From NCBI GenBank assembly GCA_017461475.1, contig JAFTXX010000001.1, positions 16,555 to 80,554 on the forward strand: DNA of 64,000 bases, written 5' to 3'. A model generated the notes under the pieces. The model was not told the DNA's origin and did not search any database. It worked only from the letters and a program-made list of their open reading frames with translations. The position numbers and the translations under genes were made by a program. Positions 5,347 through 64,000 of this stretch are shown piece after piece (the first letter of the stretch is position 1; every line of letters starts with the position of its first letter). The DNA comes from Clostridia bacterium. Its GTDB lineage: Bacteria; Bacillota; Clostridia; Oscillospirales; CAG-272.

Positions 5347-6225
5347 TTAATATAAAAACAGTTCGTTGATAGCATCGGCTAAAAGCGCGGATACTCTGTC
5401 GCTTATCAGGTCGCTTTGTCTCGGCGATACGAAAAAACTTTCTCCCTCGTGAAGCACTTTTTCGAGCCCGTCGCCAATCTCGTCAAATCCCGCTTTGCTT
5501 AAAGCGTCGTAAACGAGCGTTGCCGAGTTTACCACCGTCGGAACTCCTATCGCAATGACGGGTATGCCGAGGGTGTCGCGGCTTATCTCACTTCGGCGGT
5601 TGCCTATGCCGCTGCCCGGAAAAATGCCGCTGTCGGATATTTGCACCGTGGTGCCGAGTCTCGCGGTGGAACGCGCGGCAAGCGCGTCAATGGCTATGAC
5701 GACGTCGGGAGATGAGCGGTCGCAGATGCCGCCTATCATTTCCGCGGTTTCAATGCCTGTTTGCCCGAGTACTCCCGGCGCTACGGCGCACAGCGGCACT
5801 TTGCAGAAAGTGTCGAAAAGCTTTTTGTCATGTTCGGCTATGTGCCGCGTTACGGTCAGTCGGTCAACGGTTTTTGGACCTATACTGTCGGCTGTTATCT
5901 CGCGGTTCCCGAGCCCGGCGACAAGCACGCACGACGGCTTTTTGCCAAGCGACGACTTTATGAGCGAGTCGATTTCGTTTGCGATAAGCGTGGCGAGTGC
6001 ATCAAAGTTTTCACCGTCAATATTTGATATCATGTCGCTGAAAACCGTTACATAAGTGCCCCGTTTTTTCTTTGCTGCGGCTTCGCCTTCGTCGCCTTTT
6101 ACGGTAAGTTTTGCCACTTTGAACCCGTTTTCTGTGCGCTCCGCGTAGTCGGTTGCGCTTTTGCCTTTATCGTGCAGCACTTCGGATTCGCAGGCGAGGT
6201 CTGTTTGAATTTTATAGTTTTTCAT
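5347..6225 (-). CDS. gpr: GPR endopeptidase (spore germination protease)
   Basis: Initiates degradation of small acid-soluble spore proteins when spores germinate; the enzyme is made as a zymogen in the forespore. The start MKNYKIQTDLA at 6225 has AAAGGAAGAAG upstream. The 292-residue protein carries the family blocks QTDLACE (the usual region of zymogen processing), GLGNREITADSIGP, APGVLGQTGIET, IDALAARSTARLGTT and PGSGIGN. It is first in a two-gene unit with spoIIP. With spoIIP it is the best evidence that the organism forms endospores. Confidence 0.96.
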   Translation of the reverse strand: MKNYKIQTDLACESEVLHDKGKSATDYAERTENGFKVAKLTVKGDEGEAAAKKKRGTYVTVFSDMISNIDGENFDALATLIANEIDSLIKSSLGKKPSCVLVAGLGNREITADSIGPKTVDRLTVTRHIAEHDKKLFDTFCKVPLCAVAPGVLGQTGIETAEMIGGICDRSSPDVVIAIDALAARSTARLGTTVQISDSGIFPGSGIGNRRSEISRDTLGIPVIAIGVPTVVNSATLVYDALSKAGFDEIGDGLEKVLHEGESFFVSPRQSDLISDRVSALLADAINELFLY

Positions 6226-47615: not shown

Positions 47616-49997
47616 ATGAAGATAAGAAACAATGCCGCAATAAAGGCAGTTGCTGTAATTCTATCCGTTTTGCTGTTGCTCGGCACGGTGTTTTTCGGTG
47701 TCTGTGCAGTGGCGGCGGGTGCGGTCGGTGCATACACGGGCAACTTTAAAAAGGAAAAAGAAAACGTTTTACAAAACATTCTGAGGAGCTACGCCTACGA
47801 GATTGCCGACGCATACTGGCAAGGCAACGACATAGACAAGCTGTACGGCGGCGCTAACTTCTACTATGAAATAGAAAGCTCGACAGGCGACAAGATTTCG
47901 CATCTCGGCAAGGCAAGCACATATTTGCAGCAAACTACAGTGACATACACGCAGTATGTCTATGAAAATGTCAGCTATACCGTAAACGGCGACGTGTCCT
48001 ATACTGTAGGCAGAGAGATTACCGCACCCGAGGTATCCTATACTGTAGAGAGCGAGATTGATGCACCCGAGGTATCGTACACTGTAGACGAAGGCATGTT
48101 TGCGGCTGCTGAGCCTCTGCCGGAGACTGTTGTATCAAATACAAATTCCGATGTAACCTATACAGTCAGCGGTGAAGAATCCGTGTCAACCGTGGTATAT
48201 ACCGTAGGCGGCGGACTCATTGAAAATGCCGAGCCGCTGCCGCTGACGGAATCGCCAGATGTCACATATACCGTCGACGGAGAACCGGTGGATACTGTGC
48301 AGTACGGTGTTAGCGGCGAAGATATGTTTATATTTGATGACGCGACCGAGCCTTTATCCGATAATTGTGAAGTAATAGTTACTTATAACGGTGAGTTGTA
48401 TAGTTTAGGTAATGTACAAAACACGGACGAACTGCAGGCAATACTGCATGACTTCGGCTACTATGCGGAAAGTGAACCTACCCCTGTTACATTGACTGTA
48501 ACTCTCTACGAAAAGGCGGCCAAGTACACGACCGATAAGCTTTCGCTCGCGCGCTTTTGGATCGACGCAGTCTACAGCATGCGATATGTTTCTATAAGTC
48601 TTGCCGCGGGTTGCTTTATCCTGCTTATTGCGGTGTGGATATTCCTCTTCTGCGCTGCGGGTCACCGCAAAAAGAGTTCGGAGCCGTCGCTCGGTTTATT
48701 TGACCGCATACCGTTTGACCTTTTCACGGTCCTTTCTGTTGCGCTGTTTGCAGCAATCGGTCTCGGTGTGGTATTCCTGATTGAACTTATCATGTATCAG
48801 GCGCCGGGCACGTTTTCGGCTCAGCTTACCTTTGCCATAGCAGCCGGAATTGGCACCGCAATATGCGCTGTTGTGCTTTATCTTATCCTGCTTGGTTATC
48901 TGCTCAGTTTTGCCGCTCGCGTCAAGGTCGGCGGTCTTATCCGTTCGACACTTATATATAAAGCAGTTGCATTTATTTGCCGCGGTGCGTATAAGCTCAT
49001 ATGCGCATTGCCGCTGGTCTGGAAAACCGCACTTTTGCTGTTTGCCGTAACTCTGCTTGAACTGATTTTGCTGTTGTCAAACGCATATGAGCCGGATAAT
49101 CTTGTTATTTTATGGACTGTTGAAAAGATTATTGTCATTCCGCTTGTTATTTTTGCGGTGCTGCTTCTTCGCAAACTTAAAAAAGGCGGTGAGGCTATTG
49201 CCGAGGGACACATAGGCGAGAAAATCGACACAAAATACATGCCGCTTGACTTCGGCGAGTTTGGCGAAACGCTTAATAATATCGGCGGCGGTCTTGAACG
49301 CGCAGTCGACGAAAAAATGAAGAGCGAGCGCCTTAAAACCGAGCTTATCACCAATGTTTCGCACGATATAAAAACGCCGCTTACATCCATTGTAAACTAT
49401 GTTGATCTCATCAAAAAAGAGGAGATAGAAAACGAAAAAGTGCGCGAATATGTCGATGTGCTCGACCGTCACAGCGCAAGGCTGAAAAAACTTATTGATG
49501 ACCTTGTCGAAGCATCAAAGGCTTCAACGGGTAATCTCACGGTCGAGTGCGAGCGTCTCGACGCATGCGTTCTTCTCGAACAGTCACTCGGCGAGTACAG
49601 CGAAAAACTTGAAGCAAGCGAACTTACTCCCATAATGTCAATGCCAAGCGACCCCGCTTATATCATGGCAGACGGACGCAGACTGTGGCGCGTGTTTGAC
49701 AATTTGCTCTGTAACATCTGCAAGTACGCAATGCCGAAAACGCGCGTGTATATCACTCTCGAGCGCGCCGATAATAAGGTGACCGCCATCTTCCGCAACA
49801 TCTCCCGCGAGTCGCTGAACATAACCGGTGACGAGCTCACCGAGCGCTTTGTCCGCGGCGACGCGTCGCGCAACACTGAGGGAAGTGGTCTCGGACTCTC
49901 CATAGCCCGCAGCCTCACTGAACTCCAAGGCGGCACACTGGATGTGACAATAGACGGCGACTTGTTCAAAGCCACAGTGACATTCCCCGCGGCTTAA
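47616..49997 (+). CDS. Sensor histidine kinase with repeat-bearing extracellular domain
   Basis: A 793-residue membrane kinase paired with the upstream regulator. After a first membrane segment (about 10-35) comes an extracytoplasmic domain of some 290 residues; its middle (about 116-232) holds eight repeats of a V-S/T-Y-T-V type motif. At least five more hydrophobic segments follow (about 326-530), then a short HAMP-like stretch. The kinase core has the H-box TNVSHDIKTPLTS (H583), an N-box with VFDNLLCNICKY, and GSGLGLSIA as G-box. The N-box has two Cys around the conserved Asn. The output should be phosphorylation of D52 in the partner; the signal is unknown. Confidence 0.9.
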   Translation: MKIRNNAAIKAVAVILSVLLLLGTVFFGVCAVAAGAVGAYTGNFKKEKENVLQNILRSYAYEIADAYWQGNDIDKLYGGANFYYEIESSTGDKISHLGKASTYLQQTTVTYTQYVYENVSYTVNGDVSYTVGREITAPEVSYTVESEIDAPEVSYTVDEGMFAAAEPLPETVVSNTNSDVTYTVSGEESVSTVVYTVGGGLIENAEPLPLTESPDVTYTVDGEPVDTVQYGVSGEDMFIFDDATEPLSDNCEVIVTYNGELYSLGNVQNTDELQAILHDFGYYAESEPTPVTLTVTLYEKAAKYTTDKLSLARFWIDAVYSMRYVSISLAAGCFILLIAVWIFLFCAAGHRKKSSEPSLGLFDRIPFDLFTVLSVALFAAIGLGVVFLIELIMYQAPGTFSAQLTFAIAAGIGTAICAVVLYLILLGYLLSFAARVKVGGLIRSTLIYKAVAFICRGAYKLICALPLVWKTALLLFAVTLLELILLLSNAYEPDNLVILWTVEKIIVIPLVIFAVLLLRKLKKGGEAIAEGHIGEKIDTKYMPLDFGEFGETLNNIGGGLERAVDEKMKSERLKTELITNVSHDIKTPLTSIVNYVDLIKKEEIENEKVREYVDVLDRHSARLKKLIDDLVEASKASTGNLTVECERLDACVLLEQSLGEYSEKLEASELTPIMSMPSDPAYIMADGRRLWRVFDNLLCNICKYAMPKTRVYITLERADNKVTAIFRNISRESLNITGDELTERFVRGDASRNTEGSGLGLSIARSLTELQGGTLDVTIDGDLFKATVTFPAA

Positions 49998-60692: not shown

Positions 60693-60702
60693 TATATAAA
60701 CA

Positions 60703-60718
60703 GTTAGCATATGCTAAC
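60703..60718. promoter_or_regulatory. Perfect 16-bp palindrome at the pfl transcription start
   Basis: GTTAGCATATGCTAAC, 10 bases after the -10 box and therefore around +1 to +18. Placement fits a repressor operator. It differs from the Rex pattern TTGTTAA-N4-TTAACAA; the TTAG/CTAA arms recall DtxR-type sites, which is only a suggestion. Confidence 0.65.
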
Positions 60719-60746: not shown

Positions 60747-62855
60747 ATGGAATATAAATACGAAGGATGGCATGGATTTGACCGCGGTACATGGGTAAAA
60801 GAGATCAATGTCCGCAGTTTTATCCGCCACAACTACACTCCCTACGACGGAAACGAGGACTTCCTCGAAGGTGCAACCGATGACACCCTCTCACTTTGGG
60901 ACACGGTGCTTGACCTCTCAAAGCAAGAGCGCGAGGCCGGCGGTGTCCTTGATATGGACACCAAGATCATCTCTACAATTACCTCTCACGGCCCCGGCTA
61001 CCTTGACAAAGATAAAGAAAAAATCGTCGGTCTCCAGACAGACAAACCTTTCAAGCGCGCGTTCATGCCCTACGGCGGCATCCGCACTGCGGTAAAGGCT
61101 TGCGAGGACCACGGATATACCGTCGACCCCGAACTTGTAAAGTTCTTCACCGAGCATCGCAAAACTCACAATCAGGGCGTTTTTGACGCATACACTCCCG
61201 AGATGCGCGCATGCCGCTCAAGCCATATCATCACAGGTCTTCCCGACGCTTACGGCAGAGGTCGCATCATCGGTGACTACCGCCGCGTTGCCCTTTACGG
61301 CGTAGACAGACTTATCGAGGACAAGGAAGAACAGAAGAGAACCACACGCAGCGCAATGTACCACGAGGTCATCCGCGACCGCGAGGAGATTGCAGAGCAG
61401 ATACGCGCACTTAAGCAACTTAAAGAGATGGCAATGTCATACGGCTACGACATTTCTATGCCTGCACGCGATACCAAAGAGGCTATCCAGTGGCTCTACT
61501 TTGGGTACCTCGCAGCTATCAAGGAGCAAAACGGTGCGGCAATGTCGCTCGGCAGAACTTCCACATTCCTTGACATTTACGCAGAGCGCGACCTCAAAAA
61601 CGGCACTTACACCGAGCGCGAAATTCAGGAAATGGTCGACCATTTCATTATGAAACTCCGCCTTGTAAAGTTTGCACGTACACCCGAGTACAATTCGCTT
61701 TTCTCGGGCGACCCTCAGTGGGTAACTGAGTCTATCGGCGGTGTTGCCATTGACGGCCGACACATGGTTACAAAGATGTCGTTCAGATATCTGCACACCC
61801 TGCAGAACCTCGGACCTTCCCCCGAGCCTAACCTCACCGTACTCTGGTCAACTCAACTCCCCGAGAACTTCAAGAGATACTGTGCTAAACTTTCTATCGA
61901 GACCTCGTCCATACAGTACGAGAGCGACGACCTTATGCGCGTTACCGAGGGTGACGACTATGCAATTGCATGCTGCGTTTCTTCCATGCGTATCGGTAAG
62001 GAGATGCAGTTCTTCGGCGCACGCGCAAACCTTGCAAAGTGCTTGCTTTACGCTATCAACGGCGGTGTTGATGAGGTTACAAAGAAGCAGGTCGGCCCCG
62101 AGTTTACCCCCATCACATCCGAATACCTCGATTTCGATGAAGTAATGCACAAGTTTAATGCAATGATGGAGTGGCTTGCAGAGGTTTATGTAAACACCCT
62201 CAATGTTATCCACTATATGCATGATAAATATTGCTACGAGAAGATCCAGATGGCGCTTCACGATAAGAACGTCACCCGCTGGTTTGCAACCGGTATCGCA
62301 GGATTTTCTGTAGTTGCCGACTCGCTTTCGGCAATCAAGTACGCGAAAGTACGCGTTATCCGCGACGAAAACGGTCTTGCCGTTGACTATGAGGTTGAAG
62401 GTGACTTCCCGAAGTACGGCAACGACGACGACCGCGTTGACGAAATCGCAACCGACGTGCTCCACACCTTTATGGAGCATATCCGCAAGAACCACACCTA
62501 CCGCGGCGGCATCCCGTCGACATCCATCCTTACCATTACATCCAACATCGTTTACGGTAAGGCAACAGGTTCCACTCCCGACGGACGTAAGGCAGGTCAG
62601 CCTTTCGCCCCCGGTGCAAACCCCATGCACGGCAGAGACAGCCACGGCGCAATAGCATCGCTCGCATCAGTAGCAAAGATTCCTTTCCTCGACGCACGCG
62701 ACGGTATTTCCAATACATTCTCCATTATCCCCGGCGCACTCGGTAAGGATGATAAGATTTTTGCAGGCGATATCGAGGTTGACCTTGAGTGCTGCGGTGA
62801 AGGTTGTTTTTCGCCCACTCTTTTCGACAGTATTGATGAAGAGGAGAATAAATAA
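60747..62855 (+). CDS. pflB: Pyruvate formate-lyase large chain without glycyl-radical domain
   Basis: Converts pyruvate and CoA to acetyl-CoA and formate under anaerobic conditions. The chain has 702 residues from [14 protein letters not shown] (AAGGAG upstream). The active-site pair C409-C410 stands in [11 protein letters not shown], matching C418-C419 of the E. coli enzyme. The usual end is reached at [12 protein letters not shown]; instead of the glycyl-radical domain a new tail of about 33 residues follows, with CCGEGC and an acidic end. The missing domain is encoded by the next gene, which overlaps by one base. Both are needed for activity, by inference. Confidence 0.95.
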
Positions 62856-63097
62856 TGAAAGCAACAGATAATCAGATTGATAACCTTGTCGCACTTCTTG
62901 ACGCTTACTCTGTCAAGGGCGGCCACCATCTTAATGTAAATGTGTTCAGCAAGGATACCTTGCTTGACGCTCAGGCTCACCCCGAGAAATATCCTCAGCT
63001 TACAGTCCGCGTCAGCGGCTATGCCGTTAACTTTATCAAGCTGACCAAGGAACAGCAGGACGAGGTAATCTCGCGTACATTCCACGACAGTTTTTAA
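62855..63097 (+). CDS. Stand-alone glycyl-radical domain of pyruvate formate-lyase (GrcA-like)
   Basis: An 80-residue protein that corresponds to the C-terminal part of E. coli [29 protein letters not shown], then RVSGYAVNF with the radical glycine at residue 55, and SRTFHDSF at the end. The first 20 residues ([19 protein letters not shown]) match the helix that normally joins the domains. Autonomous domains of this kind (GrcA/YfiD) rescue damaged PFL in E. coli; here it is the only such domain at the locus, so it should be an obligate subunit. AGAGGAG upstream; start coupled by TAATG. Confidence 0.95.
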
Positions 63098-63100
63098 GTT

Positions 63101-63841
63101 ATGGACGGATATGTTCACTCGGTTGAAAGTTTCGGCACCGTAGACGGTCCGGGTATTCGCTTTGTGGTCTTTCTTTCGGGTTGCCCGATGCGCTGTAAGT
63201 ATTGCCACAATCCCGATACATGGGATTTGACAGGCGGTACAAAAACAAGCGTTGATGAGCTCATTTCACAGTATAAGCGCAATGAGCCGTTTTACAAAAA
63301 CGGCGGAATGACTGTCACAGGCGGCGAACCGCTTGTGCAGATAGACTTTCTCACCGAACTTTTTTGTGCGGCAAAAGCGTGCGGCATACACACATGCCTT
63401 GACACCTCGGGCGCAACATATCGCGCGGATCCCGAGTATATAAAGAAACTTGACACACTCATGCAGTACACCGACCTCGTTATGCTCGATATAAAGCATA
63501 TCGACACCGATGCACACCGAGAACTTTGCGGTATGGGAAACGAAGGTATACTTGCCTTTGCAAAATACCTCGACAGCAAAAATATTCCCACATGGATACG
63601 CCATGTCATAGTCACTGGTATAACCGACGGCGAAGAAGAGCTGATAAACTTAGGTGAGTTTATAGCCGGTCTTAAAAACGTCAAAGCACTTGATGTTTTG
63701 CCGTATCACACAATGGGCGTAGCAAAATATAAATCCCTCGGCATCGATTACCCGCTAACCGGCGTCGCCCCCACCCCCGCCGAGACCGCCAAAAAAGCAA
63801 AAGAAACAATTCTCAAAGCCATCCACAGTAAAAGAACATAA
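63101..63841 (+). CDS. pflA: Pyruvate formate-lyase activating enzyme
   Basis: Radical SAM enzyme of 246 residues that makes the glycyl radical on PFL. The cluster motif is CPMRCKYCHNPDTW (CxxxCxxC), with VTGGEPLVQ as SAM-binding block and LDTSGA, MLDIKH further on. It begins four bases after the glycyl-radical gene with no clear ribosome binding site, so reinitiation is likely. In this locus its substrate is the separate small chain. Confidence 0.95.
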   Translation: MDGYVHSVESFGTVDGPGIRFVVFLSGCPMRCKYCHNPDTWDLTGGTKTSVDELISQYKRNEPFYKNGGMTVTGGEPLVQIDFLTELFCAAKACGIHTCLDTSGATYRADPEYIKKLDTLMQYTDLVMLDIKHIDTDAHRELCGMGNEGILAFAKYLDSKNIPTWIRHVIVTGITDGEEELINLGEFIAGLKNVKALDVLPYHTMGVAKYKSLGIDYPLTGVAPTPAETAKKAKETILKAIHSKRT

Positions 63842-63865: not shown

Positions 63866-64000
63866 TGCACCCCAAAAGTTAGACACTTTTGGAGGTGCAT
63901 ATTTTTTATTATGGGAAAGAAAGGACAAGAATATAAAAGATACTCGGCAGAATTCAAAATATCTGTTATAATGGATATGCGAGAACACCATTTGGGGCTC
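63866..64000 (+). mobile_element. Left end of an IS3-family insertion sequence (continues past window)
   Basis: Begins TGCACCCCAAAAGTTAGACA, an end sequence typical of IS3/IS150-group elements, and folds with ACTTTTGGAGGTGCA into a hairpin (63866-63899). The transposase orfA starts at 63911. The right end and target duplication lie outside the window. Confidence 0.75.
63911..64000 (+). CDS. IS3-family transposase OrfA, 3' end cut by window
   Basis: Only the first 30 residues are visible: MGKKGQEYKRYSAEFKISVI and on to REHHLGL. The basic start and Y-S-x-E-F-K pattern are those of the helix-turn-helix OrfA protein of IS3 elements. The ribosome binding site is unclear (GGAGGTGC lies 15-20 bases upstream). 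Confidence 0.75.
   Translation, partial: MGKKGQEYKRYSAEFKISVIMDMREHHLGL

Follow-up and report, generated by a model that had tools for sequence, protein, structure and literature searches.

Three adjacent genes in the stretch of DNA analysed here, 64,000 nucleotides from a Clostridia bacterium (the window), very probably encode a pyruvate formate-lyase (PFL) made of two chains, a large core and a small glycyl-radical chain, together with its activating enzyme; this is the best explanation of the locus taken as a whole. Glycyl-radical enzymes are textbook single-chain proteins, in which oxygen destroys the radical domain and with it the usefulness of the chain. What can be read directly is that both halves hold their catalytic residues, that the genes are recurrently adjacent, and that most of the genomes with the split have no other PFL that we could find; from these observations we infer docking, activation and activity. 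The features of the locus are as follows.

60747..62855, + strand: PFL core chain, 702 aa, with C409/C410 at 61971-61976 and without a glycyl-radical loop
62748..62852, + strand: residues 668-702 of the core chain, a conserved C-terminal tail with the cysteine module C683-x3-C687-x2-P690-TLF
62842..62846, + strand: AGGAG, ribosome binding site of the small chain, inside the 3' end of the core gene
62853..62857, + strand: TAATG, in which the core stop and the small-chain start overlap by one base
62855..63097, + strand: glycyl-radical chain, 80 aa, GrcA3 type, with the radical Gly55 at 63017-63019
63101..63841, + strand: pflA, radical SAM enzyme of 246 aa that activates PFL, separated from the small-chain gene upstream by 3 bases

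The core gene opens with the ATG at 60747, downstream of an AAAGGAG (an alternative opening of the same frame lies at 60711), and closes with the TAA at 62853-62855; the small chain begins at the ATG at 62855, and its RVSGYA loop holds Gly55. Core gene, small gene and pflA form a single same-strand run, and the pflA product scores 297.1 bits against TIGR02493 (cut-off 231.75). The core alone belongs to the PFL family TIGR01255 by score (1101.2 bits; cut-off 994.2), covering model positions 2-665 of 744, and its C409/C410 pair is invariant in all 17 aligned PFLs. Across the 106 positions of the Pfam Gly_radical model the core matches 1-51 and the small chain 49-106, so that the radical loop is found not on the core chain but in the product of the next gene. 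The initial annotation had described a core that keeps C409 and C410 and ends without the RVSGYA loop, and an 80-residue gene that carries the loop, overlaps the core by one base and has its own ribosome binding site; both descriptions hold.

Alignment to the E. coli enzyme (1h16) places the core on residues 10-681 and the small chain on residues 683-758, and the linker helix, the strand, the radical loop and the C-terminal helix are thus all kept, in agreement with the earlier proposal that the small chain starts at the linker helix and that nothing essential is lost. The natural cut falls just before this helix, and the artificial cut made in the E. coli protein (after residue 695; PMC8683613) lies 14 residues further downstream. 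The small chain passes the NCBIfam model NF038360 (GrcA3) with 162.9 (cut-off 158) and falls short of those for GrcA/YfiD (TIGR04365; 92.8, cut-off 170) and GrcA2 (104.5, cut-off 145). It is nevertheless homologous to YfiD (6owr; E 6e-22), its residues 18-79 aligning to YfiD 65-126. The GrcA-type context had been recognised in the initial annotation, which missed that a curated model, NF038360, already exists for the small chain.

Some further observations concern the surroundings of the locus. Just 5' of the core gene, at 60702-60717, lies a perfect palindrome, GTTAGCATATGCTAAC, with a single occurrence in the whole assembly. It was considered as an operator and rejected, being confined to one genomic place and not conserved; the pattern TTAGC..GCTAA stands upstream of only 2 of 47 and 3 of 71 related genes. 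At 63912-64000 a reading frame beginning MGKKGQEYKRYSAEFKISVIMDM reaches the end of the window, which is also the end of the contig, and presumably resembles the first ORF of an IS3-type transposase. The product of 47616-49997, whose N-terminal part has tandem copies of a VSYTVESEIDAPE-like motif, we take to be a probable histidine kinase.

The split is a genuine, recurrent arrangement and not a chance event, since it recurs in 45 distinct sampled genomes of the same class, from 18 GTDB families, all of them read at the DNA level; the survey of relatives that had been suggested as a check on the split thus finds it well beyond the window. A further genome, G334, with a 79-aa frame that might have been counted as a split, has this frame at a contig end and was excluded from the 45. 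Genomes above the NF038360 cut-off numbered 9 of 146 in the family, 20 of 295 in the order and 21 of 391 in the class (these samples overlap); G602 and G612, both from the class sample, carry the split yet score just under the cut-off, and at the level of the phylum 2 of 398 genomes exceeded it, both already known from the class. Three sampled genus mates (G030, G091 and G134) carry a fused PFL only 57-58% identical to the window core, so that the window operon was probably acquired or swapped and not inherited with the genus.

Scanning 84,980 species genomes with the core tail gave at least 406 confirmed stretches, the best 80 of which were kept. The small gene adjoins the core in 78 of these best 80, the other two ending at a contig edge, and none of the 80 matched chains is continued by a radical loop. 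This set is two-gene by design and so gives no prevalence, and with at least 17 of its 80 contigs matching contigs of the 45 genomes in length the two sets overlap. Its sources are mostly metagenome-assembled genomes (MAGs) of ruminant-gut Clostridia, and also include Robinsoniella peoriensis, Lachnoclostridium sp. An14 and Enterocloster MAGs. A protein-level search of phage records returned 1539 records, mostly 60-80% identical. One of them, MT838895.1 (titled "Bacteriophage sp.", 4.8 kb, from human faeces), has at 2055-2294 the gene of a radical chain 79% identical over all 80 residues, and may be a bacterial contig that was filed as phage.

Given the homology of the small chain to YfiD, and a family name in NCBI that calls it an autonomous cofactor, the small chain could be a repair spare beside an inactive or decaying core, with the work of PFL done by another enzyme. 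Full-length PFLs were sought with TIGR01255 in 23 split genomes and G334, and then in the other 22 split genomes; none was found in 43 of the 45, nor in 28 of the 30 with a completeness of 90% or more and a contamination of 5% or less. The search of the window's own assembly that had been proposed likewise found none, in a draft (86 contigs, 2.06 Mb) that is about 76% complete, so that a second PFL may lie in the unsampled part. A full-length PFL for the small chain to repair is accordingly missing from the window assembly and from these 43 genomes as searched. The window genome encodes five more glycyl-radical enzymes (L001, L002, L003, L005 and L006), which were considered as full-length PFLs and rejected, none being PFL-like: they favour TIGR01774 (259-400 bits, below its cut-off) over TIGR01255 (76-91 bits), in sequences cut at 617-623 aa. 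The two exceptions, G761 (1182 bits) and G662 (1166 bits), speak for a spare part; they are sister genomes of one genus, and their split copies (L107 and L108) are without the cysteine module. The split, which had appeared obligate in the initial annotation, is therefore not obligate in every genome, and the sister pair offers a natural case for what a split copy adds beside a full-length PFL. With the active-site residues of the core kept and the core itself passing the TIGR01255 cut-off, we consider a spare part beside a defunct core improbable.

Stop read-through or programmed frameshifting might instead join the two frames into one chain, and indeed both genes share a frame in 34 of 78 tail-scan loci (from the best 80 of at least 406). 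The other 44 fall into the two remaining frames (25 and 19), a near-random spread; 74 of the same 78 loci show an AGGAG-like motif ahead of the small gene, and the core stops in the 78 are TAA in 67, TGA in 9 and TAG in 2. Several in-frame pairs are separated by more than one stop, and the window frames overlap by one base. The gap between core and small gene has a median of 23 bases, with overlap in 3 of the 78. On the frames and the motif we rejected a joined product, which is very improbable; with varied frames and spacing and a conserved tail across loci, the earlier argument that no simple frameshift explains the split is strengthened. An error of assembly or sequencing is the natural suspicion in a draft of 86 contigs and 76% completeness. 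The same junction and the same conserved tail are present in tens of separate assemblies, among them Robinsoniella peoriensis (L198) and Lachnoclostridium sp. An14 (L206), whose records are not titled as MAGs, and we regard such an error as the least credible explanation of all. The reading that we retain is that of a two-chain PFL with its activase.

The part of the locus that looks new is a cysteine module, which is apparently undescribed. After ALGK, where the linker helix would continue, the core tail carries C-x3-C-x2-PTLFEGLD; the initial annotation had noted about 33 new residues before the stop, and the extra residues are real, though they number 35 (668-702) and form a conserved module, not filler. 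The module is a tail of the core in 26 of the 45 split loci and a separate gene in 12, where the core tail is short and cysteine-free; both forms together occur at none of the 45, and neither at 7, in whose genomes a whole-genome search found no separate copy. With these seven loci lacking it, the module is not indispensable. Both of its cysteines are present in all 78 tails, from loci found with a tail-built query, and in all 11 aligned separate copies. The ratio pN/pS in the tails is 0.30 (148 pairs with pS <0.6, from 54 of the 78), a value biased downwards because the tails were picked by their motif.

The separate module gene has about 60-84 codons and lies between core and small gene in 11 of the 12 loci; in L094 (G563) it is found at 5564-5749, downstream of the small chain, and this copy, outside the profile, was still recovered at 5e-20. 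The N-terminal halves of the separate module and of the small chain are similar (hhalign over 33 columns, E 4e-7, probability 92.7%), so that the separate module looks like the helix and strand of a radical domain with, after them, the motif that the window core carries as its tail. Three separate copies match NF038360 weakly over positions 2-30 (E 4e-4, 0.026 and 0.016); beyond these weak GrcA3 matches of the first half, the three copies gave nothing in NCBIfam and no Pfam family, and the profile of the separate module found no convincing relative in the PDB. The same profile weakly matches the last residues of the core, the expected spot, in two genomes, G084 (per-genome E 0.012) and G709 (0.026).

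The two-chain enzyme should work much as the ordinary one does. The small chain would supply the functions of E. coli residues 683-758, namely the linker helix, the barrel-closing strand, the radical loop and the last helix, and would dock into the open core; PflA would then place the radical on Gly55, which would hand it to Cys410/Cys409 for the cleavage of pyruvate as by an ordinary PFL. The module, whether tail or separate gene, most likely acts at the socket, a step of which we are less sure than of the others, either in the docking or recognition of the radical chain or as a placeholder over the site while it is empty. E. coli PFL 1-695 combined with a YfiD fragment and activated is reported to have a kcat of 204 +/- 32 per s, against 105 +/- 7 per s for the wild type, and loss of residues 696-733, termed the recognition element of the cut enzyme, to leave no measurable YfiD binding and to lower activation 32-fold (PMC8683613). 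The core of a natural split enzyme lacks this stretch, and a docking role for the module makes sense because these residues are needed for YfiD binding and the module would replace them. A conserved replacement at that very place, with helix and strand kept in some lineages, is how a docking or recognition element would be expected to look. Cheap replacement of the small chain after cleavage by oxygen is plausible, and it would fit the spare-part work on YfiD (PMC8683613).

More tentatively, and with something short of an even chance in our estimate, the enzyme may comprise three modules, a cysteine-bearing pseudo-radical domain at or next to the socket governing both docking and activation of the radical chain. 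We would put forward with equal caution that this module arose from a duplicated radical domain which kept the helix and strand and whose loop became C...AC..PTLxEG, and, no more firmly, that it shrank to a core-fused tail in the lineage of the window and is a free protein elsewhere. The main rival to docking is a redox or quenching role of the two cysteines, the module being a metal- or redox-responsive regulator, for instance a radical quencher or a disulfide switch; their retention in every tail and aligned separate copy would suit such a role, and benzylsuccinate synthase offers the precedent of a small accessory subunit able to control the transfer of the radical (PMC12590467). Against a regulator stand, for the three copies, the missing Pfam family and the lack of anything in NCBIfam beyond the weak GrcA3 matches, and also the lack of a convincing PDB relative; this too we hold to be possible without favouring it.

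Structure models are neutral between docking and a redox or quenching role, as the module is predicted to be disordered. The joined pair of the homologue L042 was modelled by AlphaFold with a mean pLDDT of 75 and the joined triple of the three-gene system L101 with 67; the tail in the former (residues 667-706) stays below 50, so that no docking site is seen for it, and in the latter the separate module forms a helix (696-712) and a strand (716-722) with its cysteine part below 50, and module placement is not readable from either. The docked radical domain of the L042 model is partly built in by the fused PFLs among its alignment rows, and on account of these rows the match to 2pfl (TM 0.83 over 793 columns) is likewise expected. 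A tree of 71 core sequences, of which 37 are two-gene, 10 three-gene and 18 fused forms and 6 lack the module (partial large chains excluded), was calculated by a quick method and nests six fused PFLs (L046-L049, L115 and L116) among the split ones, as would follow from re-fusion or from more than one split. A grouping of all split sequences was not rejected, however (AU p 0.136), and we draw no conclusion on the origin of the split.

Compared with E. coli PflB (1h16, 2pfl; TIGR01255), the window enzyme has a homologous core and radical chain, the cysteine pair, the radical glycine and an adjoining PflA, but it consists of two chains and not one, and its core ends in about 35 additional conserved residues. 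YfiD/GrcA (6owr; TIGR04365) is likewise a separate protein bearing the radical loop; unlike it, the window small chain has no counterpart of the 60-residue N-terminal part and starts at the PFL linker helix, and small chains of the GrcA3 type are found mostly in genomes without a full-length PFL. As a sequence the small chain does not differ from GrcA3 (NF038360), a comparison made by name and scores. BSS-beta and BSS-gamma of benzylsuccinate synthase, also small additional proteins, tune a glycyl-radical enzyme too, but they bind [4Fe-4S] in a HiPIP-like fold (PMC12590467), whereas the module has two cysteines.

The best PDB matches of the window core are two entries named "Formate acetyltransferase", 38la (687 aa) and 38lb (739 aa); the first stops right after SLGKED, and the second continues into a tail that has no radical loop, in the manner of split large chains. 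Both entries, which the initial annotation had missed, look like split-type large chains, though they may be engineered constructs. A search of the PDB with the small chain matched no small chain of either entry, and neither is among the 50 matches listed by Foldseek (copy up to April 2026). We found no description of a split PFL or of GrcA3 in the open literature searched, which mostly leaves out subscription journals; with the NF038360 model and these seemingly split-type entries, the split is nonetheless partly on record.

PFL is a central enzyme of fermentation and normally a single chain; here it is encoded as a large catalytic chain and an 80-residue radical chain, which poses the problem of activation and radical transfer across two chains. 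The cysteine module adds a concrete new part with a testable role and, if the three-module reading is true, would represent, in natural and permanent form, the recognition element which E. coli PFL exposes only after oxygen damage. With a natural split PFL that is spread among gut Clostridia, in most cases without another PFL, the idea of the radical domain as a spare part becomes testable as a standing design.
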